Shown piece after piece: positions 3,981-38,192 of a stretch of 64,000 nucleotides of DNA. Position numbers and translations under genes: made by a program. Position 1 is the first letter of the stretch. Each line of letters begins with the position of its first letter. Origin of the DNA: a virus; IMG/VR virus record IMGVR_UViG_3300042868_007959, positions 62,001-126,000 of that record; one strand, given 5' to 3'. Under the pieces are notes generated by a model that was not told the DNA's origin, ran no database searches, and worked only from the letters and a program-made list of their open reading frames with translations.

Positions 3981-4028
3981 TTTATTTTTTTTAAATTATA
4001 ATGATAAAAAAATAAATAGTAAAGTATT

Positions 4029-4451
4029 TTATAATTTTATTTCGAACCTATCTTTCATTATTTGAATTTTGTCTTCAGGAACACCATGTTCATTTATACC
4101 TTCGTGTCTATTTTCTACAATAATTGAGAACACTTTATAATCATACTGTTTTGCCAACTCATAATAACGTTCCATTTCCCATTCTTGTGTAAATGTATTA
4201 GAAACTGCAATCTCTCTGTAGAAGTTATCGTTAATCAGTGAATCCTTCATATATGTTTCAACTGTATCCTGACAGAATTTATGTGCGTCTTTGATTTTAC
4301 TAAAATCAAAATTATATTCTCCAGTCTCTTTATCGACAAAATATTTGTCCGCCTCACAAACTAAAAAATCGTGTTCCACTAATCTTTTGGCGAATGTAGA
4401 TTTACCTGAACCAGGTACTCCTCTTACTATATATAAAATTTTATCATCCAT
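4029..4451 (-). CDS. P-loop kinase / ATPase (polynucleotide-kinase-like)
   Basis: 140 aa. Walker A GVPGSGKSTFAKRL at residues 11-24 with VRGVPGSGKST typical of zeta-toxin/PNK-type AAA_33 kinases; EADKYFVD (33-40) and AVSNTFTQEWEME (83-95) match the later motifs of this group. Only the kinase domain is present, no phosphatase domain. It could phosphorylate RNA or DNA 5' ends and support the RNA ligase at 6315, but the substrate is not shown by sequence. Confidence 0.8.
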   Translation of the reverse strand: MDDKILYIVRGVPGSGKSTFAKRLVEHDFLVCEADKYFVDKETGEYNFDFSKIKDAHKFCQDTVETYMKDSLINDNFYREIAVSNTFTQEWEMERYYELAKQYDYKVFSIIVENRHEGINEHGVPEDKIQIMKDRFEIKL

Positions 4452-4469
4452 TTTATTCTGATTTAAAGG

Positions 4470-4685
4470 TTAACAACTTTCTTGATATTCTTTTCCTCCT
4501 TGTGTAATAGCATCTAATACTCTAAATAAAGGAACTAATATAGTACCATTGGTATAGACTTCTTCTTTATCTTTAAAACTATAATCAATTATAAAATCAA
4601 TAATCTTAAGCTGCTCATCTGTCAATGTTGTAGAATCTAATCTACTTTTTACAGATATATCATTTTTTATTTCTTCTTTGTCCAT
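4470..4685 (-). CDS. Hypothetical protein (71 aa)
   Basis: I place the start at the internal Met (MDKEEIKNDISVKSRL) because the 25 codons upstream overlap another small gene (4711..4794) and because the leader before this ATG (TTTGATTTAG) resembles the one before the kinase gene. The protein is helical and acidic, ending in TQGGKEYQESC. No family recognised. Confidence 0.6.
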   Translation of the reverse strand: MDKEEIKNDISVKSRLDSTTLTDEQLKIIDFIIDYSFKDKEEVYTNGTILVPLFRVLDAITQGGKEYQESC

Positions 4686-4710
4686 CTTATTTTGATTTAG
4701 GTAGTTTTTA

Positions 4711-13624: not shown

Positions 13625-13643
13625 AGTATTTTAATTGTTTATG

Positions 13644-13717
13644 TGGTCCTTGTTGGAATCGAACCAACCACCTACTGATTATGAGTCAGTTGCTCTAACC
13701 GAATGAGCTAAAGGACC
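13644..13717 (-). tRNA. tRNA-Met (CAT)
   Basis: Canonical cloverleaf: acceptor GGTCCTT/AAGGACC, anticodon loop CTCATAA, T-loop TTCGATT. No CCA encoded after the discriminator A. Confidence 0.9.
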
Positions 13718-13813
13718 AATTAGCGGAGATTTCATCCCATCCATTGATCACCCAAGGACTCGTTTCTAATGTATTTGGCACTCCGCCATTGTAAGTTTTC
13801 TGTTGCTTACGCC

Positions 13814-13844
13814 CTCATTCGTGGACTTCCGACATCCCAATGAG
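13814..13844 (-). other. Hairpin with GGATGTCG loop motif (copy 2)
   Basis: On the minus strand CTCATT/AATGAG closes a loop containing GGGATGTCGGAAGTCC. The first copy at 13580-13610 has different stem bases but the same loop core, so the pairing is kept while sequence changes. It lies in the 160-base spacer upstream of tRNA-Met. Confidence 0.4.
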
Positions 13845-13878
13845 TTTTACCGTCCTATCGGAGTCAGGTAACCGCTTG

Positions 13879-13970
13879 TAGTCAGGACAGGACTCGAACC
13901 TGTATGTACAGTTATACAGAACTGCACATCCCTGTATGGATATTTGCGTCTACCATTTCGCCACCTGACT
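13879..13970 (-). tRNA. tRNA-like element, Leu-type D arm, irregular anticodon arm
   Basis: Acceptor AGTCAGG/CCTGACT and T arm ACAGG-TTCGAGT-CCTGT are perfect and the D arm GGCGAAATGGTAGACGC is Leu-like. The anticodon region does not fold canonically: the best stem TATCC/GGATG has a 6-base loop. No CCA encoded. Related copies lie at 16402, 16613 and 16954. Confidence 0.5.
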
Positions 13971-14092
13971 ATAAAAACACACTCTTCAGCTTTCTACTTC
14001 CAGCTCCGAGAAATTATATATAACTTAGCCCATCTCACCGCTGTATGGGAACTGAAGTTTATGTGTCTTAAGGTTGAGAGCCTCTGTGTTGT

Positions 14093-14154
14093 AATGTTAA
14101 TTCTACATTTACATTATTTATTACGTTTAATTCCTTTCTCAAGGGAACAACACA
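14093..14154 (-). repeat. TGTGTTGT hairpin repeat, copy 1
   Basis: Seven-base arms (TGTTGT with ACAACA context) enclose CCCTTGAGAAAGG. A second copy with the same arms and inner hairpin is at 15606-15672. The ACAACACAGAGG arm also occurs in the tag region of the tmRNA near 38085. Confidence 0.45.
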
Positions 14155-14161
14155 ATAATTA

Positions 14162-14237
14162 TAGATAGGGTGGGATTCGAACCCACAATGAACAACCTTA
14201 AAAGGACTCGGCACCGTGCCTCATTACGCTCCTACCT
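14162..14237 (-). tRNA. tRNA-like element, possible tRNA-Lys (TTT)
   Basis: Acceptor AGGTAGG/CCTATCT and T arm GTGGG-TTCGAAT-CCCAC pair well. The best anticodon loop is CTTTTAA on a weak stem (4 of 5, two wobble pairs) and the D arm is poor. Possibly degenerate. Confidence 0.45.
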
Positions 14238-14243
14238 ACACTG

Positions 14244-14320
14244 AACTACCCATAGGACTCGAACCTACAACCCTTCGGCCTTAGTGACCAATGTGCAAAC
14301 CAATTTACACCATAAGTAGT
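14244..14320 (-). tRNA. tRNA-like element, loop CACTAAG
   Basis: Acceptor ACTACTT/GGGTAGT and T arm are intact. Anticodon stem TTGGT/GCCGA pairs fully but the loop CACTAAG lacks the universal U33; positions 34-36 would read CTA (amber). Identity is therefore uncertain. Confidence 0.5.
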
Positions 14321-14416
14321 TAATCAAGAAAACATATCAGAAATTACTGGTACCAAATCTCACTGCGATATATGATACATCTTCTTGTTAGGATTGGTTA
14401 ATTACTCCTATCTTTG

Positions 14417-14488
14417 TACTCCCACGGAGAATCGAACTCCGATTTTCAGGATGAAAACCTGATGTCCTAACCGTTAGACGATGGGAGC
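14417..14488 (-). tRNA. tRNA-Glu (TTC)
   Basis: Canonical: acceptor GCTCCCA/TGGGAGT, anticodon stem-loop TCAGG-TTTTCAT-CCTGA, T-loop TTCGATT. CCA not encoded. Confidence 0.92.
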
Positions 14489-14707
14489 AAATTGTGACAA
14501 CCTTTGGGTTCGATTGTCACTTTTACGTGAAAGGAGTGATCAGACCCTCTAACATCACGAGTGTAAGTTTTTCACATTAAACTATCTCTACAAAACGTCA
14601 GTTTTTATCGCCCTTAAACTGAATAAACGGTTTGACACTTTGTATCCCCTTTTTTAAGTGCGTGATACATCTTCTCTCAAACTGAACTCTACTGAGAACA
14701 CTCCCTG
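14489..14707 (-). other. Spacer between tRNA-Asp and tRNA-Glu
   Basis: About 220 bases with no ORF. It holds a strong hairpin (GTGACAA/TTGTCAC, 14495-14521) directly upstream of tRNA-Glu, possibly a processing signal. No tRNA recognised in it. Confidence 0.4.
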
Positions 14708-14779
14708 CGGTCTATGAGAGAATCGAACTCTCGGCACATCCGTGACAGGGATGTATGTTAGCCACTACACTAATAAACC
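14708..14779 (-). tRNA. tRNA-Asp (GTC)
   Basis: Acceptor GGTTTAT/ATAGACC, anticodon stem-loop CATCC-CTGTCAC-GGATG, T-loop TTCGATT, discriminator G. CCA not encoded. Confidence 0.92.
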
Positions 14780-15004
14780 AAGTTTCCCCACTCTGAGATT
14801 ACAAGTGAGTAGTCGTATCGGTTTTTTTTCTATTTGAAAAACCTGATGGGCATCCCCGTTGAAAAAGTCAGCTCTATACGTCAGCAGTGCAGAACCTCGC
14901 TACTGTTATTCTGAATCGATTGCCTTAGGGAGGCGTTTTTTAACCCTATCCATTGTTAAATGAGTCTTGGATAAAAGACTACTGAGTATCTCTTACTCAT
15001 TATG
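14780..15004 (-). other. Spacer, no gene recognised
   Basis: About 225 bases, GC-richer than coding DNA around it, with several short inverted repeats but no ORF and no T-loop signature. Probably tRNA-operon spacer RNA. Confidence 0.35.
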
Positions 15005-15161
15005 TAGTTGGGGTAGGACTCGAACCTACATAAACACTTTGAAATTTACCTACGCACCGTGAGGTAGTGTTCTTCATCATTTGCATTGCCTAACCATTGA
15101 TCGATTTTACGTTTCGGCTGCCGTGCGTGTCAATAAGCGTCTACCATTTCGCCACCCAACC
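15005..15161 (-). tRNA. Oversized tRNA-Leu-like element (157 nt)
   Basis: Acceptor GGTTGGG/CCCAACT, Leu-type D arm GGCGAAATGGTAGACGC and T arm GTAGG-TTCGAGT-CCTAC are intact, but about 105 bases separate D arm and T arm, some 70 more than in a normal Leu tRNA. The insert contains CGGC/GCCG and ATTGA/TCAAT stems. Could be an intron-like insertion or a tRNA-like processing unit. Confidence 0.45.
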
Positions 15162-15209
15162 ATACTACATCTCCTTTCGATTCTATAAGGAATCTACTCC
15201 GTTCTGTTG

Positions 15210-15283
15210 TACACCCGCCAGGATTCGAACCTGGGACCTATTCATTAGAAGTGAATTGCTCTATCCAGCTGAGCTACGGGTGC
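15210..15283 (-). tRNA. tRNA-Arg (TCT)
   Basis: Canonical: acceptor GCACCCG/CGGGTGT, anticodon arm ATTCA-CTTCTAA-TGAAT, T-loop TTCGAAT. CCA not encoded. Confidence 0.93.
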
Positions 15284-15502
15284 AAATAAAAGATGATAAA
15301 TGGATTTATCAGGAATCTGGCTATAACCATAAACACTTCCTATAATTTCTATACTATTGTCATTAGCGTATATGAGCTTCACACACCATTAGAGAGTCGG
15401 GTTGTTACATCAATACAATTAAGATCGAATACCTTTCCTTAGTGTGTACCTTTGCGTCACGTCTCTCCACGCTTACCATTCTACGCTTTGTATCATCTTT
15501 TG

Positions 15503-15586
15503 TACTCGAATCGGGACTTGAACCCGAACGGGCAATTGCCCACAAGATTTTAAGTCTGGCGTGTCTACCGATTCCACCATCCGAGC
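15503..15586 (-). tRNA. tRNA-Leu (TAA)
   Basis: Class II tRNA with long variable arm (GGGCAATTGCCC), anticodon arm CCAGA-CTTAAAA-TCTTG, T-loop TTCAAGT. This normal Leu tRNA contrasts with the irregular Leu-like elements around it. Confidence 0.92.
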
Positions 15587-26155: not shown

Positions 26156-26536
26156 TTATTTGAATTTACCAACTGGACATTCATCAATAAGTTGTTTTAG
26201 TTTGTCTTTTAACTTGTTGAACTCTTTTCTACCTTTTATCAATGTTTTACACTTTGGATAAAATCGTATTGTGTCTTCAAATTTTTCAGTTTCAATTTCA
26301 AAATCAAAAATAATATTTTCAATATTCTTATAATACCCAATATCAATATCAAACCAAGGAAAGTTTTCACCCCAATTTTTATGTCCCCAACAAGATTGTG
26401 TTGTCCCAATGTTGTTATAATTCAATAAAACAATTAATTCTCTAATACCCTCATCAATACCACAACCCAATCCATCGGTAATTATTTTTGATTTCTCATC
26501 TATTTTTTTATATCTATCATTCATAGGATAAAACAA
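26156..26536 (-). CDS. Hypothetical protein (126 aa)
   Basis: Contains GTTQSCWGH near residue 50 and a pattern of conserved Trp/Phe (WGENFPWFDIDIGYY). Probably starts at Met1 or Met5. No family recognised. It is the last gene before the attC-like array. Confidence 0.65.
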   Translation of the reverse strand: MFYPMNDRYKKIDEKSKIITDGLGCGIDEGIRELIVLLNYNNIGTTQSCWGHKNWGENFPWFDIDIGYYKNIENIIFDFEIETEKFEDTIRFYPKCKTLIKGRKEFNKLKDKLKQLIDECPVGKFK

Positions 26537-26551
26537 ATTAATAACTAAAAA

Positions 26552-26603
26552 TATAACAAATGATAAACAACATTAAAACGATTGTTTATCATCGGACGTT
26601 ATA
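26552..26603 (+). repeat. attC-like palindromic site E1
   Basis: TATAACAA, then 10-bp perfect arms ATGATAAACA/TGTTTATCAT around a 13-base loop, then CGGAC and GTTATA. This is the R-L-loop-L-R layout of integron attC sites. It is identical over 52 bases to site E2. It lies 25 bases past the stop of the minus-strand ORF 26629. Confidence 0.65.
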
Positions 26604-26628
26604 ACCAATACTACGAAAGTGTTCCAAA

Positions 26629-26826
26629 TTAAGTTTTTTCAAGTAATGAATTATCCAATTCTATATCTAAACCAAATAGTGATTTTTCAATTACTTCACG
26701 TATTGTTAATGTTGGTTCATCTTTCATAATATTTAAACAAACTAACATTAACTCATTTGTTCTATCAGTTTGATTGGTGAATTTAATCACATAATCAATA
26801 AATTTTAAATCATCAAAATGTTTCAT
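26629..26826 (-). CDS. Hypothetical cassette protein (65 aa)
   Basis: Starts MKHFDDLKFIDYVIKFTNQT; small helical protein. Two bases downstream of the 122-aa ORF and directly followed by attC-like site E1, so the two ORFs form one cassette. Confidence 0.6.
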   Translation of the reverse strand: MKHFDDLKFIDYVIKFTNQTDRTNELMLVCLNIMKDEPTLTIREVIEKSLFGLDIELDNSLLEKT

Positions 26827-26828
26827 AA

Positions 26829-27197
26829 TTAATTAAGTATTATTTCACCACACATTCTTTCATTATTTATAAATTCCTCACCATCAAACAATTTATCACT
26901 GAATTTAACACCAGCACCAATAATTTCACCTTCTTTTCTTTGAATAAAATGTTTTAATTCAAAAATATCATTACGATAAATAAAGATTCTATCAATCTCA
27001 TTTTCAAAAATAACATCATATTTATCATCAAAAATACTTGTATCAACAATGTCTAATAAACTAGTTGGTATTTTTATAATATTTTGTCCATTCATTAAAC
27101 ACGCTTTACTGATTTGTGCCGAAATTTGATTTGATTTAGTTAGTAATAACTGTGATGTTATCTCACCAGTTAATTTAATTTTCCAAGATGTTTCCAT
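26829..27197 (-). CDS. Hypothetical cassette protein (122 aa)
   Basis: Starts METSWKIKLTGEITSQLLL; beta-rich (KYDVIFENEIDRIFIYR). No family recognised. It has its own promoter -7 box (TATATTTG, about 27217-27224). Confidence 0.6.
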   Translation of the reverse strand: METSWKIKLTGEITSQLLLTKSNQISAQISKACLMNGQNIIKIPTSLLDIVDTSIFDDKYDVIFENEIDRIFIYRNDIFELKHFIQRKEGEIIGAGVKFSDKLFDGEEFINNERMCGEIILN

Positions 27198-27216
27198 AAT
27201 TTTTCTTTTTTTTTTA

Positions 27217-27284
27217 CAAATATACTAATTATTTTTCATTTAATCAAGTTTTATCTTAAAATCACCGTACTGGTTATAACCAAT
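27217..27284 (-). repeat. Recombinant junction E5 with shared promoter block
   Basis: A block from TATATTTG to the core GGTTATAAC is repeated at 27828-27892 almost unchanged, but here the core is joined to CAATACTAC (as at site E1) rather than to an attC hairpin. This looks like the product of recombination at the GTTATAAC core. Confidence 0.6.
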
Positions 27285-27297
27285 ACTACTTTTGTTC

Positions 27298-27678
27298 TTA
27301 GATGTTAGTATCTGAGTTAAAACTTTTTAAAATTTCTTGACATTTCCTCCAAGAAAAACAATCTTCACCCTCATAAAACCAATCATCAGTTTTAAAATTT
27401 GGATGTTTCTTATCATTATCATACTCTTCACCAAAATCTCTGGTTAATGAATATACCTCATTGTTAATAATTAAAGTAACTGTCATAGTACCAATCCACG
27501 CACCTTTCATATATTCATCTTCAATGATCCTATTGGTTGATGTTACGTTAACTGAATCTGGTTCGTGTTTGAATATGACTTTAAAATCATCTTTTATCAT
27601 AGTTTCCAGTGATTGTGGGGAACCTTCCATTAACCCATATAATCTACTTACAATAAATTCTTTGTATTTGTTTTCCAT
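27298..27678 (-). CDS. Hypothetical cassette protein (126 aa)
   Basis: Starts MENKYKEFIVSRLYGLMEG; contains MTVTLIINNEVYSLTRDFGEEY and a Trp-rich end (DDWFYEGEDCFSWRKC). No family recognised. Partner of the small ORF upstream. Confidence 0.6.
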   Translation of the reverse strand: MENKYKEFIVSRLYGLMEGSPQSLETMIKDDFKVIFKHEPDSVNVTSTNRIIEDEYMKGAWIGTMTVTLIINNEVYSLTRDFGEEYDNDKKHPNFKTDDWFYEGEDCFSWRKCQEILKSFNSDTNI

Positions 27679-27812
27679 TGTTTTAGTATTTCTTTAATAA
27701 CATCTTCCCATTGATTGGTTTCGGTTATATGTTTAATTTTGTTTTCTGAAAAAGAAGATACTTGTCTATGACCTTCTTTATCAGTAATAATAATCTCCAT
27801 TTTAGATTCCAT
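27648..27812 (-). CDS. Small hypothetical cassette protein (54 aa)
   Basis: ATG at 27812; MESKMEIIITDKEGHRQVSS start and basic tail. Overlaps the 126-aa ORF by 31 bases and sits just after a promoter block (27828 onward). A toxin-antitoxin-like two-gene layout is possible but not shown. Confidence 0.5.
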   Translation of the reverse strand: MESKMEIIITDKEGHRQVSSFSENKIKHITETNQWEDVIKEILKQWKTNTKNLL

Positions 27813-27827
27813 AATCTATTTTTTTTT

Positions 27828-27862
27828 ACAAATATACTAATTATTTCCCAATTAGTCAAGTT
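27828..27862 (-). promoter_or_regulatory. Cassette promoter
   Basis: Minus-strand CTTGAC, about 20 bases, TATATTTG, matching the promoter type in the window, immediately upstream of the ORF at 27812 and downstream of attC-like site E3. A near copy lies at 27217 and a weaker one near 28527. Confidence 0.55.
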
Positions 27863-27886
27863 TTATCTTAAAATCACCGTACTGGT

Positions 27887-27978
27887 TATAACAACGTGTA
27901 TATTCAAGTTTGCATCAGCATTTGTGCATAATTCAAATTTAATCAAAGCAAACCTGAAATATACACGCATCCGTTATA
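27887..27978 (+). repeat. attC-like palindromic site E3
   Basis: TATAACAA, arms CGTGTATATT/AATATACACG continuing to a GTTTGC/GCAAAC inner stem with one extrahelical base, then CATCC and GTTATA. Length 92, in the attC range. Twelve bases past the stop of ORF 27991. Confidence 0.65.
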
Positions 27979-27990
27979 CACAATATTTTT

Positions 27991-28179
27991 TTACCCACCC
28001 AAAACCCATTTCATTAACGCATTCATTGAGTGTTGTTCATTTTCACCATTAATGTGTTCTTGTATATTTTCAATAGTTACATCATCGTATTTATTTGGAT
28101 TTCTAACCTTATCCATTAATAATTCAAGATGTCTTAACATTTCATCGTATTTTTCTCTAATTTCGGTTTCCGTTCTCAT
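27991..28179 (-). CDS. Hypothetical cassette protein (62 aa)
   Basis: Starts MRTETEIREKYDEMLRHLELL; helical with ENEQHSMNALMKWVLGG end. Such small helical proteins are frequent in phage genomes. Overlaps the upstream ORF by 4 bases; followed at once by attC-like site E3. Confidence 0.6.
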   Translation of the reverse strand: MRTETEIREKYDEMLRHLELLMDKVRNPNKYDDVTIENIQEHINGENEQHSMNALMKWVLGG

Positions 28180-28511
28180 AATTTTTCAACCCATTCTAAA
28201 TTTTTAGTTAATGTCCATAAACAATTAACATCATCTACATCTTTACTAACAAATCTTTCTGTTATATCTTCACCAGTGTCAACATTCTTTACAGATTTTA
28301 TTTTTAAAAATGGATTTTGACCAACAAGTTCAACTAATAAATCAGATGGTTTTGGTGTTGGTTCTTCTTTGAAGATGTTTTTGAAAAACTCTTTATGTTC
28401 ACCACTAATTTCAAGCGAATTTATTTTACTTTCACGTTCTTCTGTTAATGAATAATCTTTATCATTACCTTTTATTAAGTAAACACCATTCTTTAATTCT
28501 TCTTTTTCCAT
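28176..28511 (-). CDS. Hypothetical cassette protein (111 aa)
   Basis: Starts MEKEELKNGVYLIKGND; no family recognised. Preceded by a TATATTTG -7 box near 28527-28534 and by attC-like site E2. Confidence 0.6.
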   Translation of the reverse strand: MEKEELKNGVYLIKGNDKDYSLTEERESKINSLEISGEHKEFFKNIFKEEPTPKPSDLLVELVGQNPFLKIKSVKNVDTGEDITERFVSKDVDDVNCLWTLTKNLEWVEKL

Positions 28512-28579
28512 AATTTATATTTTTTTTACAAATATACTAATTTATTTTTAATTTATCAACCCTCCCACAAAATACTGTG

Positions 28580-28631
28580 TATAACAAATGATAAACAACA
28601 TTAAAACGATTGTTTATCATCGGACGTTATA
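28580..28631 (+). repeat. attC-like palindromic site E2
   Basis: Identical over 52 bases to site E1 (arms ATGATAAACA/TGTTTATCAT, spacer CGGAC, end GTTATA) but with different flanks. Two bases from the stop of ORF 28633. Confidence 0.65.
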
Positions 28632-28632
28632 T

Positions 28633-28788
28633 TCAATTAAAAATTACTAACATAAGTAGAAAAATTACTATAAAAAGTTGTATTGTGTAATTATTTGTTG
28701 TTATGTAGTCATAACCAAGATTGATTGTTACTTCCTCATTTTCCCAATCATCCCACTTTTTATATAATTTTTTTATAAATTTAATCAT
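28633..28788 (-). CDS. Small membrane cassette protein (51 aa)
   Basis: MIKFIKKLYKKWDDWENEE start, then a C-terminal membrane helix (FIVIFLLMLVIF). Stop TGA abuts attC-like site E2. Sole ORF between sites E4 and E2, the smallest cassette. Confidence 0.55.
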   Translation of the reverse strand: MIKFIKKLYKKWDDWENEEVTINLGYDYITTNNYTIQLFIVIFLLMLVIFN

Positions 28789-28802
28789 AATTTTTAACTA
28801 AA

Positions 28803-28893
28803 TATAACAAGGTATATGTGAAATACCTCATAAAGTTTCTACTAAATTTTAAAGTTCTGTGGTAAGGTACTTCACATATACCCGACCGTTATA
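28803..28893 (+). repeat. attC-like palindromic site E4
   Basis: TATAACAA, 12-bp perfect arms GGTATATGTGAA/TTCACATATACC, long loop with further pairing, then CGACC and GTTATA. The stop codon of ORF 28889 lies inside the final GTTATA. Confidence 0.65.
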
Positions 28894-29155
28894 AAACATT
28901 ATAGTTGTTTTTTATTTTACTCCATAATTTTCCAAAAGCATTACCCATATTTCTATCATTAAAATCAATTGCACCTTGAATATACGCATCATTTACAATT
29001 TTCTCTAGTTCATAGTATGTAAATGAATATTTTTTTGATTCTTGCTTTACTATTTCTTTCTTTCTAAATAATTTTCCTATCATAATAAACGTTTTATAAC
29101 AACAAATATAGATATTAATTTCTATATAAACAAATTTTTTTAAAAATAGTACCAA
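28889..29155 (-). CDS. Hypothetical cassette protein, start uncertain
   Basis: The open frame is 88 codons; the Met at residue 25 (MIGKLFRKKEIVKQES, position 29083) is the more likely start because the TATATTTG promoter box lies between the two Met codons. Contains YYELEKIVNDAYIQGAIDF. Its stop is inside attC-like site E4. Confidence 0.55.
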   Translation of the reverse strand: MVLFLKKFVYIEINIYICCYKTFIMIGKLFRKKEIVKQESKKYSFTYYELEKIVNDAYIQGAIDFNDRNMGNAFGKLWSKIKNNYNVL

Positions 29156-29224
29156 AGGTGAGATTCGAACTCACAAACCTTTGTTTCTAAGACAAAGAGG
29201 TATACCGATTCCCGTCACTTTGGC
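29150..29224 (-). tRNA. tRNA-Leu (TAG)
   Basis: Acceptor GCCAAAG/CTTTGGT, anticodon arm TTTGT-CTTAGAA-ACAAA, T-loop TTCGAAT. Variable arm is short for a Leu tRNA, so identity rests on the anticodon. Confidence 0.85.
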
Positions 29225-29230
29225 ATTTTG

Positions 29231-29303
29231 AGCAGGTAGAGAGAATCGAACTCTCGTCCTCTGATTGGAAGTCAGACATAATAAGCCACTATACGATACC
29301 TGC
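29231..29303 (-). tRNA. tRNA-Gly (TCC)
   Basis: Acceptor GCAGGTA/TACCTGC, anticodon arm TCTGA-CTTCCAA-TCAGA, T-loop TTCGATT. CCA not encoded. Confidence 0.92.
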
Positions 29304-29310
29304 ATTAAGA

Positions 29311-29445
29311 TTATTTTCTCTTAATCTTTTTTTTTAATTTAATAAATTTTATTAATCTTATTAAATTAATAGAATTTTTTCTAGACTCGATAATATTAAA
29401 ATTATCTTTCGATGATCTACCAGAACCCGTCATTACCTCTCTCAT
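29311..29445 (-). CDS. Small basic protein between tRNAs (44 aa)
   Basis: ATG at 29445; MREVMTGSGRSSKDNFN start and a very Lys/Ile-rich tail. It fills the gap between tRNA-Ala and tRNA-Gly. Uncertain, but it repeats the ORF-in-tRNA-cluster pattern of cluster 1. Confidence 0.4.
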   Translation of the reverse strand: MREVMTGSGRSSKDNFNIIESRKNSINLIRLIKFIKLKKKIKRK

Positions 29446-29473
29446 ACTTATTTATTTTACTTTTTATTATTTG

Positions 29474-29548
29474 TGGATACATCTCGGCTTCGAACCGAGG
29501 ACTCCTGAGTGCAAATCAGGTGTGATAGCCAGCTTCACCAATGACCCA
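29474..29548 (-). tRNA. tRNA-Ala (TGC), weak acceptor
   Basis: Anticodon arm CCTGA-TTTGCAC-TCAGG and T arm CTCGG-TTCGAAG-CCGAG are good. The acceptor stem has mismatches in the middle. Confidence 0.75.
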
Positions 29549-29550
29549 AA

Positions 29551-29628
29551 TGGTTGCGGGACTGGGACTCGAACCCAGAACTTCGGCTTATGAGACCGAC
29601 GAGATAACCAATTTCTACATATCCCGCA
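29551..29628 (-). tRNA. tRNA-Met (CAT), CCA encoded
   Basis: Acceptor TGCGGGA/TCCCGCA, anticodon loop CTCATAA, T-loop TTCGAGT. Followed by an encoded CCA, unlike most tRNAs here. Could be initiator or elongator. Confidence 0.9.
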
Positions 29629-29661
29629 ATTTTTAATTACACCGAATTCGGTATAATTGAG

Positions 29662-29736
29662 TTCCCCCGACAGGATTCGAACCTGTGGCCCGTACATTAA
29701 AAGTGTAATGCTCTAAACCAACTGAGCTACGAGGGA
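29662..29736 (-). tRNA. tRNA-Lys (TTT)
   Basis: Acceptor TCCCTCG/CGGGGGA, anticodon arm TTACA-CTTTTAA-TGTAC, T-loop TTCGAAT. Confidence 0.9.
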
Positions 29737-29742
29737 TTGTTG

Positions 29743-29814
29743 AGGTTTCGCTCAGATTCGAACTGAGGACACTTGATTACAAATCAAGAGTTTTACCGAC
29801 TAAACTACAAAACC
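29743..29814 (-). tRNA. tRNA-Thr (TGT)
   Basis: Acceptor GGTTTTG/CGAAACC, anticodon arm CTTGA-TTTGTAA-TCAAG, T-loop TTCGAAT. Confidence 0.92.
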
Positions 29815-29820
29815 TAATTG

Positions 29821-29894
29821 TCACCCGTATGGGATTTGAACCCATGATCTTTTCCGTGAAAGGGAAACGACTTAAACCGCTTGTCCAACGGGCG
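29821..29894 (-). tRNA. tRNA-Glu (TTC), second copy
   Basis: Acceptor CGCCCGT/ACGGGTG, anticodon arm TTTCC-CTTTCAC-GGAAA, T-loop TTCAAAT. Sequence differs from the Glu tRNA at 14417. Confidence 0.88.
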
Positions 29895-29902
29895 ATATTT
29901 AG

Positions 29903-29975
29903 TAGTCTCTGTAGGGTTCGAACCTACGACAACTTGCATGTAAAACAAGTGCTCTACCAACTGAGCTAAGAGACT
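29903..29975 (-). tRNA. tRNA-Val (TAC)
   Basis: Acceptor AGTCTCT/AGAGACT, anticodon arm CTTGT-TTTACAT-GCAAG, T-loop TTCGAAC. Confidence 0.92.
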
Positions 29976-29976
29976 G

Positions 29977-30052
29977 TGGCGGTCCATGACGGTTACGATC
30001 CGTCTACTCTACCGTGACAGGGTAGGATGATAAGCCATTTCACCAATAGACC
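29977..30052 (-). tRNA. tRNA-Asp (GTC), second copy, CCA encoded
   Basis: Acceptor GGTCTAT/ATGGACC, anticodon arm CTACC-CTGTCAC-GGTAG; T-loop ATCGTAA is unusual at its first base. CCA follows the discriminator G. Confidence 0.88.
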
Positions 30053-30083
30053 ATTTAAATGATAATCAGGATTAGATTATATA

Positions 30084-30114
30084 CGTGCTCTACCAACTGA
30101 GCTACCGCCGCCCC
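30084..30114 (-). pseudogene. 5' half of a tRNA
   Basis: Reads GGGGCGGCGGTAGCTCAGTT and GGTAGAGCACG, a clean acceptor strand plus D arm, but no anticodon, T arm or 3' acceptor follows before tRNA-Asp. Most likely a remnant of a deleted tRNA. Confidence 0.6.
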
Positions 30115-30116
30115 GA

Positions 30117-30195
30117 AGGACAACGGACAGGATTCGAACCTGCGACACCGAGCTTAAAAGGCTAATGTAATTGTTGCTGAAACAATCCTTTTATT
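30117..30195 (-). tRNA. Degenerate tRNA-like element, TTT loop
   Basis: A T arm GCAGG-TTCGAAT-CCTGT and a loop CTTTTAA on a stem with one mismatch are visible; the D arm and 5' acceptor do not fit. Probably a decayed Lys-type tRNA. Confidence 0.4.
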
Positions 30196-30203
30196 ATCAT
30201 TTG

Positions 30204-30289
30204 AGGAAGAGGTAGGATTCGAACCTACGGTACCTTTCAGTACGCTAGTTTTCAAGACTAGTACAATAAACCAACTCTGTCACTCTTCC
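30204..30289 (-). tRNA. tRNA-Ser (TGA)
   Basis: Class II: long variable arm, acceptor GGAAGAG/CTCTTCC, anticodon arm CTAGT-CTTGAAA-ACTAG, T-loop TTCGAAT. Confidence 0.92.
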
Positions 30290-30296
30290 AATTTTT

Positions 30297-30315
30297 ACCA
30301 ATACGTCAAAGAACT
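30297..30315 (-). promoter_or_regulatory. boxA-like antitermination element
   Basis: Minus-strand AGTTCTTTGACGTATTGGT, just upstream of tRNA-Ser(TGA) and just downstream of a terminator. Confidence 0.6.
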
Positions 30316-30324
30316 AAAAACAAA

Positions 30325-30350
30325 AAACCCTAAGTTCTCACTTAGGGTTT
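30325..30350 (-). terminator. Terminator between leader ORF and tRNA operon
   Basis: AAACCCTAAG/CTTAGGGTTT inverted repeat followed on the minus strand by T-rich sequence. It separates the small ORF at 30380 from the boxA-like element and tRNA-Ser. Confidence 0.75.
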
Positions 30351-30379
30351 CCATTATATAGTATTTAAATTTTTAAATG

Positions 30380-30478
30380 TTATCTATTACAATATACCCT
30401 AAGATCTGGTTGCAGCGAATCCGCTCCCTCCATTTTCGTCTTAACGACCTCTAATCTGTATGTCATTGTATTTTTCAT
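30380..30478 (-). CDS. Small leader ORF (32 aa)
   Basis: MKNTMTYRLEVVKTKMEG start and a DLRVYCNR end. A near-consensus promoter lies upstream and a strong terminator downstream, so it is a discrete unit. The same promoter-ORF-terminator-boxA order recurs at 32.3-32.6 kb. Confidence 0.55.
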   Translation of the reverse strand: MKNTMTYRLEVVKTKMEGADSLQPDLRVYCNR

Positions 30479-30509
30479 TGAAATTTTTACCTTTTTAATT
30501 AAATATACA

Positions 30510-30541
30510 TAAAGTTACGAAAGTTTCTTCAAAAAGTCAAA
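30510..30541 (-). promoter_or_regulatory. Promoter of the 30380 leader ORF
   Basis: Minus-strand TTTG, 20 bases, TAACTTTA, close to the Bacteroidetes consensus. It lies between tRNA-Cys and the leader ORF. Confidence 0.6.
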
Positions 30542-30578
30542 TAATTTTTAATTTTTTTTAAAATTTATTTTATTTAAG

Positions 30579-30652
30579 AGGTCAGAGAGGGATTCGAACC
30601 CCCGAATAATGGATTTGCAGTCCACCCCTTTAAACCACTCAGGCATCTGACC
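30579..30652 (-). tRNA. tRNA-Cys (GCA)
   Basis: Acceptor GGTCAGA/TCTGACC, anticodon stem TGGA/TCCA with loop CTGCAAA, T-loop TTCGAAT. Confidence 0.9.
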
Positions 30653-30721
30653 ATTAGTTCACTAAACTATAATTTGCTCGATAAACTATATCTGTTTATT
30701 GTAGCAAAAATAAGTTTATTG

Positions 30722-30795
30722 TACACTCTGAGAGATTCGAACTCCCATCTTATAGTCCGTAGCCATATGTTCTGATCCGTTGAACTAAGAGTGTA
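30722..30795 (-). tRNA. tRNA-Arg (ACG)
   Basis: Acceptor ACACTCT/AGAGTGT, anticodon arm TATGG-CTACGGA-CTATA, T-loop TTCGAAT. An A34 tRNA needs TadA-type editing by the host. Confidence 0.88.
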
Positions 30796-30797
30796 TT

Positions 30798-30871
30798 GGT
30801 AGGGATGGGTGGAGTCGAACCACCGAGACAACTGTATAAGAGTTGCATGTTCACCGTTACATCACATCCCC
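30798..30871 (-). tRNA. tRNA-Ile (TAT), CCA encoded
   Basis: Acceptor GGGGATG/CATCCCT, anticodon arm CAACT-CTTATAC-AGTTG, T-loop TTCGACT, followed by CCA. Reads AUA, a codon common in this AT-rich genome. Confidence 0.9.
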
Positions 30872-30878
30872 ATTTTTG

Positions 30879-30966
30879 CGGAAAGAATAGGATTCGAACC
30901 TATGGTACCCTTACGAGTACAACACCTTAGCAGGGTGCCTCAATAAACCAACTCTGACATCTTTCC
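30879..30966 (-). tRNA. tRNA-Ser (GCT)
   Basis: Class II with long variable arm, anticodon arm GCACC-CTGCTAA-GGTGT, acceptor GGAAAGA/TCTTTCC, T-loop TTCGAAT. Confidence 0.92.
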
Positions 30967-30971
30967 ATTTG

Positions 30972-31045
30972 GGTGTATGACGGGAATTGAACCCGTGACC
31001 TTTTGATTCACAATCAAACACTCTAACCAACTGAGCTACATACAC
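30972..31045 (-). tRNA. tRNA-His (GTG)
   Basis: Acceptor GTGTATG/CATACAC with discriminator C, anticodon arm TTTGA-TTGTGAA-TCAAA, T-loop TTCAATT. No encoded G-1. Confidence 0.9.
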
Positions 31046-31047
31046 AG

Positions 31048-31118
31048 TTGTCTCCCAAGGATTCGAACCTCGATTCAGTGGTCCAAAACCACTTGTCCTG
31101 CCTTTAGACGAGGAGACA
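31048..31118 (-). tRNA. tRNA-Gln (TTG)
   Basis: Acceptor TGTCTCC/GGAGACA with U1-A72 as in Gln tRNAs, anticodon arm AGTGG-TTTTGGA-CCACT, T-loop TTCGAAT. Confidence 0.9.
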
Positions 31119-31181
31119 ATTTAAAATTATTCACTACCCAAATATCGAATTTTTTACTACTTTTGGGAAGTTAATAATTAG

Positions 31182-31256
31182 TCTGGGTAGCGAGACTCGA
31201 ACTCACATTATGTCCACATCCCAAATGTGGCGGCTTACCAATTAGCCAATACCCAG
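31182..31256 (-). tRNA. tRNA-Pro (TGG)
   Basis: Acceptor CTGGGTA/TACCCAG, anticodon arm CCACA-TTTGGGA-TGTGG, T-loop TTCGAGT. Confidence 0.92.
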
Positions 31257-31263
31257 TTAAAAG

Positions 31264-31337
31264 TGGTGATGGGTGGAATCGAACCACCGACAACCTAGAT
31301 CTTCAATCTAGTGCTCTACCAACTGAGCTACATCACC
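31264..31337 (-). tRNA. tRNA-Phe (GAA)
   Basis: Acceptor GGTGATG/CATCACC, anticodon arm CTAGA-TTGAAGA-TCTAG, T-loop TTCGATT. Confidence 0.93.
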
Positions 31338-31341
31338 ATTT

Positions 31342-31416
31342 GCACATCTCCAAGGATTCGAACCCTGATCAAACGATTTGGAGTCGTTTATGCTAAACCA
31401 TTACACCAGAGATGTG
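31342..31416 (-). tRNA. tRNA-Trp (CCA)
   Basis: Acceptor CACATCT/AGATGTG, anticodon arm AACGA-CTCCAAA-TCGTT, T-loop TTCGAAT. Confidence 0.92.
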
Positions 31417-31499
31417 TATAAATGTTCAGGAAGACTTTTTGTTTTCAAATTTCCGATCTTGATTTTTTTATTTTGCTGAAATCTTCCTTTTAACATTTG

Positions 31500-31582
31500 T
31501 GAGGGTAGTAGGATTCGAACCTACTCAGTCATAGACAACAGATTTACAGTCTGCCCCAACTCTCCAACTTTGGCGTACCCCC
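31500..31582 (-). tRNA. tRNA-Tyr (GTA)
   Basis: Class II tRNA with long variable arm, anticodon stem CAGA/TCTG with loop CTGTAAA, T-loop TTCGAAT. Confidence 0.92.
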
Positions 31583-31598
31583 ATTATTAATTTAATCA

Positions 31599-32138
31599 CT
31601 AAACATTTATTAAACCCGCATGTATTTCTGAATGACAATTAGAACACACTAAAATACATTTATCTACTTCATATTTTAATTTTTCGAAGGATAAACTTTT
31701 ACCTGATATTGTAAAATCTTTACTATTAGGATTTAAATGGTGGAATTCTAACGCATTAAAACATTTGTTATATCCACAAATTTGACACTTACCACCTTTA
31801 TATTCTACTAATCTAATTTTCACTCTCTTTCTCCATAAAATAACAGATTCAGAAGATGTCATTGTTTTAATTCTATCTTTAGTTTTAATATATTTTTTTA
31901 AAGTATCAAAAGAACGTTTAGTTATTTTAGATACTTTTTTTATTGAACCTAGTTCATCATATAATTTTTGATATAATTCAATGTCCTCTTTAGTAGTTTT
32001 TTGATTATTATCACCTAAACCATTCATTTTACAATGATAAGAAACTGTAGACATTGCACACCCTAAAATCTTAGTTATCTCTTTATACGTTTTACCTTCT
32101 TTTCTTAATTCTAAAATTTTTTTCGAATACCTTTCCAT
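31599..32138 (-). CDS. HNH endonuclease with N-terminal HTH (homing-type)
   Basis: 179 aa. N-terminal HTH (TYKEITKILGCAMSTVSYHC, residues about 18-37), a second HTH-like stretch, then HNH core CQICGYNKCFNALEFHHLNP (about 119-138) and CILVCSNCHSEIHAG (about 160-174) with paired CxxC zinc ligands. Sits inside the tRNA cluster with its own direction unchanged, as free-standing homing endonucleases often do. Confidence 0.88.
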   Translation of the reverse strand: MERYSKKILELRKEGKTYKEITKILGCAMSTVSYHCKMNGLGDNNQKTTKEDIELYQKLYDELGSIKKVSKITKRSFDTLKKYIKTKDRIKTMTSSESVILWRKRVKIRLVEYKGGKCQICGYNKCFNALEFHHLNPNSKDFTISGKSLSFEKLKYEVDKCILVCSNCHSEIHAGLINV

Positions 32139-32215
32139 AAGATTAACATTTTTAATTAATAAATATGGTATAATACTAATAATTTAATTTTAAAAAATCA
32201 ATAGGTAAAAAATTG

Positions 32216-32302
32216 CTGACGGGGTGGGATTCGAACCCACGGTGGAGAAATTCTCGTCGGATTAACAGTCCGATGCGTTCGGCCTACTACGCGAACCCGT
32301 CA
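32216..32302 (-). tRNA. tRNA-Asn (GTT) with long variable arm
   Basis: Acceptor TGACGGG/CCCGTCA, anticodon arm TCGGA-CTGTTAA-TCCGA, T-loop TTCGAAT. Unusually for Asn the variable region is long (GAGAA/TTCTC stem), giving 87 nt. Confidence 0.85.
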
Positions 32303-32315
32303 TTTACTTTCATAA

Positions 32316-32332
32316 CAATATGTCAAAGAACT
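32316..32332 (-). promoter_or_regulatory. boxA-like antitermination element
   Basis: Minus-strand AGTTCTTTGACATATTG between tRNA-Ile(GAT) and tRNA-Asn. It matches the boxA region of Bacteroidetes rRNA operons as I recall it. Confidence 0.6.
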
Positions 32333-32341
32333 TTTGTTCTG

Positions 32342-32417
32342 TCGGTATGGTAGGGATCGAACCTACGAATCTTCTCGATATCAGCGAGATGCCTTAAACC
32401 AACTTGGCCACATACCG
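32342..32417 (-). tRNA. tRNA-Ile (GAT)
   Basis: Acceptor CGGTATG/CATACCG, anticodon arm TCTCG-CTGATAT-CGAGA, T-loop TTCGATC. First tRNA of cluster 2 on the transcript. Confidence 0.92.
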
Positions 32418-37793: not shown

Positions 37794-38192
37794 GTGGAGA
37801 TGGAGGGAGTCGAACCCTCGTCCAATCAAATTGCCATTAAAAATTCATTCACAAGCTTAGTTCATTTTTCTTAATGAACAAAATATTTGGTTTTATTTAT
37901 AACATGGTTACCAACAACCCTGTTTCGATAATTGTTTAGAGAGTTTTACCGTCAACTCTATTTTTTACACCTTTCTGTTTCTAGGTAAGTGTGACCCACC
38001 GATTAAACTAATTCCATTAATTCAATCTCTTCAACCACCGCTGAGCGAGTGATAGAAGTTGGGATACTCATCATATCCTCTGTGTTGTATGCGTTTGCAT
38101 TTATATTTTGATAGGTGTTTAAGGGTTTCCATCTAACCCTGCTTGCATCATTTCAAACTCAACCTTTGACTGTCAAATCCAAAACCATCCCC
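37794..38192 (-). ncRNA. ssrA: Phage tmRNA (transfer-messenger RNA)
   Basis: About 399 nt. The 5' end GGGGATGGTTTTGGATTTGAC and the 3' end with T arm and CATCTCC plus discriminator A form the tRNA-like domain (GGGGATG/CATCTCC). No CCA is encoded. The likely tag frame starts GCA AAC GCA TAC (ANAY) near 38099 and stays open for 31 codons to a TAA near 38004, ending ELMELV rather than the usual LAA. RNA identity is sure; the tag reading is inference. Confidence 0.92.

Follow-up and report, generated by a model that had tools for sequence, protein, structure and literature searches.

An integrase-less array of attC-like sites and cassettes in a contractile-tailed phage and its probable place in a phage-borne integron system

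The window analyzed here, a 64,000-nucleotide stretch (G000:62001-126000) of a 253,879-base virus record, very probably carries an array that belongs to a phage-borne integron system, has no integrase, and consists of five cassettes, four of which retain their sites. A preliminary description of this DNA had proposed an attC-like array without an integrase in a phage. That proposal stands in an extended form, related phages having these sites next to an integrase, together with an attI-like site and cassettes in shuffled order. The array is not one of the CALINs of ordinary bacterial integrons. The phenomenon is larger than was first seen, the four sites and the putative scar of a fifth very probably belonging to a phage system with many relatives.

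Integrons are gene-swapping platforms best known for the spread of antibiotic resistance. The I2 patch of their integrase, IntI, is regarded as the innovation through which a Xer-like enzyme became able to recombine attC sites as folded single strands; extrahelical bases are docked in the process, the I2 helix docking the bulged attC bases (PMC7790495). Patch and extrahelical bases are regarded as required for attC recombination (PMC7790495, PMC8138268), and tools recognize integron integrases by the I2 patch (PMC9024848). Phage integrons and CALINs were described by Qi et al. in 2023, the complete ones being IntI integrons in temperate phages (PMC9892861).

RESULTS

Four sites of one geometry and a scar

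All four sites in the window (Table 1) have the layout first reported for them, namely, TATAACAA, arms of 10 to 12 perfect pairs, a five-base spacer (CGGAC in E1 and E2, CATCC in E3, and CGACC in E4), and GTTATA. The identity of E1 and E2 over 52 nt holds, and the 92-nt E3 and 91-nt E4 are present where they had been placed. The arms begin two bases past TATAAC, and the four sites share one rigid geometry and a single orientation. E4 has the conserved pair at arm position 13, G.T on the bottom strand and A.C on the top strand. When the entire record was scanned strictly for the geometry of the sites, the scan returned E1 to E4 and one weak 7-pair match elsewhere; ten shuffles of the record gave 0 to 3 weak matches each. 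Folding of the sites, which the preliminary description had suggested as a check, gave hairpin z-scores of −2.8 to −4.7, with the minus strand folding better than the plus strand. E3 has a one-base bulge and is in this one exception to the bulge-free pairing of most long sites.

Between E1 and E3 lies a hairpin-less junction that had been overlooked. On the simplest reading, a fifth hairpin would have dropped out between its two GTTATAAC boxes, leaving flanks of two site types.

Table 1. Positions of sites, cassettes, and promoter-like stretches in the window
Feature	Position	Strand	Remarks
attC-like site E1 (52 nt)	26552-26603	+	Own site of the left-hand cassette (ORF 26156-26536); G|TT switch point after 26598
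attC-like site E3 (92 nt)	27887-27978	+	Switch point after 27973
attC-like site E2, identical to E1	28580-28631	+	Switch point after 28626
attC-like site E4 (91 nt)	28803-28893	+	Switch point after 28888
Scar of a putative lost fifth site	27256-27290	+	E3-type left flank CACCGTACTGG and E1-type right flank TTATAACCAATACTAC, meeting at one GTTATAAC
Cassette 1 ORF (126 aa)	26156-26536	-	Site is E1
Cassette 2	26599-27273	-	ORFs 26629-26826 and 26829-27197; own site apparently lost at the scar
Cassette 3	27274-27973	-	ORFs 27298-27678 and 27648-27812; includes E3
Cassette 4	27974-28626	-	ORFs 27991-28179 and 28176-28511; includes E2
Cassette 5	28627-28888	-	ORF 28633-28788; includes E4
Promoter-like stretch, cassette 2	27207-27262	-	TTG...TATATTTG; sequence reading
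Promoter-like stretch, cassette 3	27819-27874	-	Repeat D2; sequence reading
Promoter-like stretch, cassette 4	28519-28565	-	Sequence reading

Cassette genes of the window

As had been stated, the ORFs around E1 to E4 are all on the minus strand. Each set had also been credited with its own promoter; Bacteroidota-type stretches (TTG...TAnnTTTG) were found by eye in three window cassettes, and the claim is weakly supported for the cassettes of other phages (48 of 158). The stretch in cassette 2 sits in a 74-nt repeat (D2) that is 95% identical to the copy in cassette 3.

A search for the same ORFs at other loci, also suggested earlier, showed that cassettes 1 and 4 recur in other contigs. Cassette 1 (26188-26601) is 99.5% identical to a cassette, C38, of loci L044 and L049 and about 95% identical to copies in L050 and L051. 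Cassette 4 (28001-28631) is 98.1% identical to a copy in L019, an 8.1-kb locus with almost nothing else in common with the record of the window. For the cassette 3 ORF at 27648-27812, array locus L045 contains a 74% relative. L051 and the window's phage are related over many kilobases (74 to 81% identity) and differ in gene order. None of the eight window cassette ORFs had a match in PHROGs. A DNA similarity search of the 24.5- to 31.5-kb region against isolate phages had tRNA genes among the matches listed and nothing informative.

A contractile-tailed phage and its relatives

The record encodes a tail sheath, a T4-type major head protein, a DnaB-like helicase, and a ribonucleotide reductase, and its source is a contractile-tailed phage. 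Because the T4 portal was not found in this record, its phage nature rests on the head and tail proteins. Of 26 array contigs, 12 had the portal, versus 0 of 14 control genomes; the PF17289 terminase had no match in any contig and was thus not informative. Judging from the promoter form and the relatives, the hosts of these large phages are apparently Bacteroidota. In agreement with the claim that the array is integrase free, neither PF00589 nor IntI matched anywhere in the record, which may be incomplete, and no attI-like site was present in it.

A search with the E1 arm pattern found the site in other viral contigs, in 35 stretches altogether. The 52 nt hardly vary across these stretches, most of the flanks are unrelated, and similarity stops at the boxes. 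Further sites that have this geometry with different arms are carried by the same contigs, with as many as 13 sites in a row (L014), and a published phage genome of 462 kb, LR756500.1, contains an array as well. In 84,980 genomes of bacteria and archaea, the 38-nt core was found in 1 contig, in a scan for one exact pattern of one site type that would not reach relatives with other arms. We looked for phage identity of a contig from a "Gallicola" metagenome-assembled genome (L086) and found no support for it. The cassette system appears to be almost confined to viruses. An apparent tRNA in the loops of two sites in L045 was not confirmed by ARAGORN.

A linked tyrosine recombinase and an attI-like site

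In the 33 records searched, the IntI model matched ten and PF00589 matched nine. These matches comprise eight intact tyrosine recombinases (~270 aa), which score far under the IntI cutoff, one split copy, and one contig-end fragment. The linked enzyme is about 267 to 270 aa long. Ten copies are 66 to 82% identical to the first copy and conserve the catalytic residues (R, H-x-x-R-H, and Y) of a tyrosine recombinase, not of a Y1 transposase. A search with an alignment of the copies yielded 107 viral relatives, of which 80 loci were kept. The integrase-bearing contigs are all metagenome derived, and the contigs in general are mostly metagenomic and may be fragments.

Of 149 strict sites in the 80 integrase loci, 146 lie on the 5′ side of the integrase and on the opposite strand. 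The relation of attC to intI in the controls (Vibrio, class 1, and class 2) is the same. The array adjoins the integrase in most loci that have enough upstream sequence, and no strict site was found in some integrase loci despite kilobases upstream (e.g., L125/L126, L149, and L158). Just upstream of the integrase start is an attI-like site, ATATAtaaTaG|TTRRRY in site orientation, represented by 64 unique sequences. Sequence upstream of the integrase start is variable as far as RYYAAC and conserved beyond it.

By alignment, the I2 patch, an IntI-specific insert, is missing in 78 of 78 phage integrases. The distance from the K-beta motif to HxLRH is 59 to 60 residues in all 78, compared with 107 to 108 in IntI and 69 to 73 in XerC/XerD. 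IntI forms its own clade in the tree (support, 99/95). The phage enzymes form a group that also contains two flavophage integrases (99/99), and support is weak for the deeper split (75/96). The best-matching family is the XerA-like NF040815, with a score under its cutoff. A fold search gave IntI4 and XerA equal, low TM-scores (about 0.55), and the fold therefore does not discriminate between them.

Cassettes switch at G|TT

Cutting at G|TT defined 209 cassettes in 158 clusters, with a median length of 625 bp. The orders and neighbors of C1, C2, C8, C15, C38, and C39 differ between loci. Reading from the integrase, L044 has c151-C38-C39-C1-C15, L049 has C1-C14-C2-C38-C39, L099 has C1-C14-C2-C15-c41, and L134 has C2-C8-c84; L018 has C35-C8-C36. 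C1 and C2 occur at attI and also behind another attC, and the switching is base exact at G|TT.

Among the unique 3′ ends of homology between contigs, 58 of 169 fall at G|TT, whereas 300 random shifts gave 0.54 on average and never more than 4. The corresponding figure at 5′ ends is 12 of 158, versus 0.66; it is lower because homology can extend into a neighboring identical site. R″ and R′ are exact complements in just 70 of 195 contexts, and the mismatch in most contexts is expected if R′ is supplied by the neighbor cassette. Comparison between loci thus points to cassette capture and shuffling with a switch at G|TT. Together, the sites, the attI-like site, the fixed orientation, and the shuffling argue for an integron-type cassette system.

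It is highly improbable that cassettes were instead exchanged by homologous recombination between phages at short shared repeats, with the integrase used for phage integration only. The identical 52-nt repeats could act as crossovers, and T4-like phages recombine heavily. However, G|TT switches also occur between attI and attC, which have almost no common sequence, and in cassettes whose sites differ in arms; also against it, the integrase adjoins the array in most loci that extend far enough upstream.

Departures from known integrons

The sites have the integron R″ and R′ boxes (RYYYAAC and GTTRRRY) and a foldable stem, and attI lies beside the integrase in the related phages, though not in the window. 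Extrahelical bases are generally absent, most long sites pairing without bulges. An A.C pair on the top strand, which makes G.T on the bottom strand, occupies arm position 13 in 90 of 102 unique long sites and arm position 8 in 44. Of the wobbles that form on one strand only, 148 form on the bottom strand and 4 on the top. The missing parts match, the patch being absent from the protein and the extrahelical bases from the site, which fits one coherent system.

The cassette genes also depart from the integron plan, in which they have the orientation of attC and are read from Pc at attI. In the 158 cassettes, 281 ORFs of at least 50 aa are antiparallel to the sites and 24 are parallel, and the cassette ORFs point toward the integrase. 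That the sites face away from the genes had been raised as a caveat, possibly marking a terminator or another kind of recombination element. The opposition is real and family-wide, but it is not a sign of a terminator. Since the genes are antiparallel and at least some cassettes have their own promoter, array position should matter little, and transcription should run toward the integrase.

If accepted as attC, the four sites of the window form a CALIN in the formal sense of at least two attC sites with no nearby integrase. An ordinary IntI integron or CALIN taken from a bacterial host, as known for some phages (PMC9892861), would account for the R boxes, the G|TT switch, and a layout of integron type, and the TATAACAA...GTTAT ends are seen in Vibrio sites too. 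Such an origin is nonetheless very unlikely. The recombinase is without the IntI patch in every linked integrase aligned and falls outside the IntI clade, the sites are without extrahelical bases, the core of the 52-nt site was found in one contig of the 84,980 genomes, and the ORFs run opposite to the sites. Because it lacks the patch, the phage system is not a classical integron, although it behaves like one.

Terminators and transposable palindromes

The preliminary description had named an outcome that would speak against it, namely, that the sites would turn out to be generic terminators or MITE-like repeats while the order of the ORFs would be fixed; comparison of loci showed cassettes in variable order instead. 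Every site does sit at the 3′ end of a set of ORFs, with the transcribed sense as the better-folding strand, as would be expected of transcription terminators or mRNA 3′-end stabilizers of minus-strand operons whose likeness to attC is convergence. We consider this explanation highly unlikely. An intrinsic terminator is a hairpin without mobility or an enzyme partner, and by comparison between loci these hairpins have both. A terminator has no need for a constant TAACAA...GTT frame, for near-invariant 52-nt copies in unrelated phages, for an integrase linked in fixed orientation or an attI site, or for base-exact cassette switching at G|TT, and an Rfam search of seven array loci gave no family match. 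The hairpins may have a secondary role as terminators.

The sharp ends and unrelated flanks of the near-identical 52-nt palindromes could suggest a palindromic element, a MITE or one like IS200/IS605, that transposition spread among phages. This is hardly credible, since the mobile unit is gene plus site and not the site alone, sites with entirely different arms have only ends and geometry in common, R″ and R′ vary independently, and the linked enzyme is a tyrosine recombinase.

DISCUSSION

Our preferred reading is that the window holds part of an integron system whose full platform, in related large phages, consists of a Xer/XerA-type recombinase of ~267 aa, an attI-like site, and a cassette array. 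Each cassette runs from TTRRRY through the reversed genes and the promoter to the attC hairpin and a final G. The recombinase would cut at G|TT, on the far side of the G, both in attI and in the attC R′ box. Recombination between two attC sites would free a cassette circle, which could reenter at attI or at another attC. The G.T pairs form only on the minus strand, and we infer from this that the folded minus strand is the substrate. Phages without an integrase keep their arrays, and a second phage could supply the enzyme in trans for remodeling; the sites of the window could be recombined in this way.

On the origin of the system, we see an even chance that it represents a viral integron lineage, from a second origin or by ancestral persistence. 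The I2 patch would never have been acquired, the hairpins would correspondingly lack extrahelical bases, and the strand would be chosen by G.T wobbles or by the 2/5 spacer. If true, a viral lineage without the I2 patch would bear on the proposal that integrons arose in viruses. A system that has the boxes, attI, and the G|TT switch of integrons but neither patch nor extrahelical bases makes integron origin experimentally testable. Large phages with their own gene-capture platform could swap small accessory genes between unrelated phages, and current integron searches may miss such a cassette system. We found no earlier report of it in the open-access literature, preprints and subscription papers being outside the scope of that search.

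Classical integrons (class 1 and Vibrio chromosomal) resemble the phage system in having attI beside the integrase, tandem cassettes, RYYYAAC...GTTRRRY boxes, the G|TT switch, the same site orientation relative to the integrase, hairpins of variable loop length, and mostly unknown small genes. Unlike them, the phage system has an integrase without the I2 patch, a G.T wobble at arm position 13 in place of extrahelical bases, a 2/5 spacer, ORFs antiparallel to the sites, and a distribution almost limited to phages. Published phage CALINs likewise are attC clusters without an integrase, in virulent phages (PMC9892861). In contrast to the window, flavobacterial phage P12002L, the one scanned, is without any site of this geometry, and the description of those CALINs included neither a linked phage integrase nor an attI family (PMC9892861).

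XerA/XerD-like recombinases (NF040815; 4a8e; xerD/TnpF beside tet(X); the Ingeline phage integrase), which include the best-matching family and closest sequences of the phage integrase, share its catalytic core without the IntI patch. No sites of this kind were found beside the Ingeline, Freya, Chryseobacterium, and Persicobacter relatives. In the reverse integron of Treponema (PMC7691350), as in the phages, integrase and cassette genes are read in one direction. There, the integrase gene is inverted and the cassettes lie downstream, whereas in the phages the cassette genes are inverted and the relation of integrase to site is classical.

Sequence features of the attC-like sites and their surroundings

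At all loci, a CAAT motif is conserved 2 to 3 bases past R′, the right-hand box, in both the attC-like and the attI sites, with conservation at its four positions of about 0.5, 0.76, 0.95, and 0.85. The motif is also present on the cassette side of attI. CAAT is perhaps part of the recombinase binding site. Two attC-like sites in another array (L045) have loops resembling a tRNA T-arm, and no tRNA was detected in the loops of either by using ARAGORN.

Scanning the window with ARAGORN identified 28 tRNA genes. They form two groups, and the second directly adjoins the attC-like array. A tmRNA was also called, with an unusually long tag of 31 residues, and the call is doubtful as it stands. A half-site candidate lies just upstream of where ORF 28889-29083 starts; a right half to pair with it is absent from positions 29086 to 29137.

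Features in the window and at other loci
Feature	Locus	Position	Remark
tRNA genes, first group	Window	13643-15586	ARAGORN
tRNA genes, second group	Window	29149-32417	ARAGORN
tmRNA call (doubtful)	Window	37794-38192	ARAGORN
Half-site candidate TATAACAACAAATATAG	Window	29095 (within 29086-29137)	Similar to the left half of a different site type (TATAACAACAAATAT...)
Near-identical attC-like sites	L045	2203-2334 and 2594-2725	T-arm-like loop sequence GGTGGGAGTCGAACCCAC
TnpF/XerD-type recombinase	Plasmid pHH1107 (L183)	4001-4708	
Interrupted integrase gene	L092	13306-14735	Contig G019, 464,605 bases

Cassette proteins

Pfam matches were scarce among the longer cassette proteins (n = 92; L108, L148, L099, and other arrays) and comprised RNA ligase, C5 DNA methylase, ADP-ribosyltransferase, GNAT acetyltransferase, and exoribonuclease. 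Short N-terminal leaders (MKDL..IKRFNESEENLNISDVSDS, MSKEMREQIDRVKNWKQFLNE, and MKDLRQFIKTTIREFLNE) recur among cassette proteins (L102, L103, L014, L018, L031, L099, L143, and other loci), and the bodies behind them are unrelated to one another. These leaders are similar to the capsid-targeting leaders of T4 internal proteins; because of this resemblance, the phages may package and inject the products of some cassettes.

Relatives of the phage integrases

The plasmid-borne recombinase of pHH1107 is closely related to the phage integrases (~47% identity), and has near-identical matches in Acinetobacter plasmids. On pHH1107, its gene adjoins tet(X3). In G019, the integrase gene is interrupted by an ORF resembling a GIY-YIG endonuclease.
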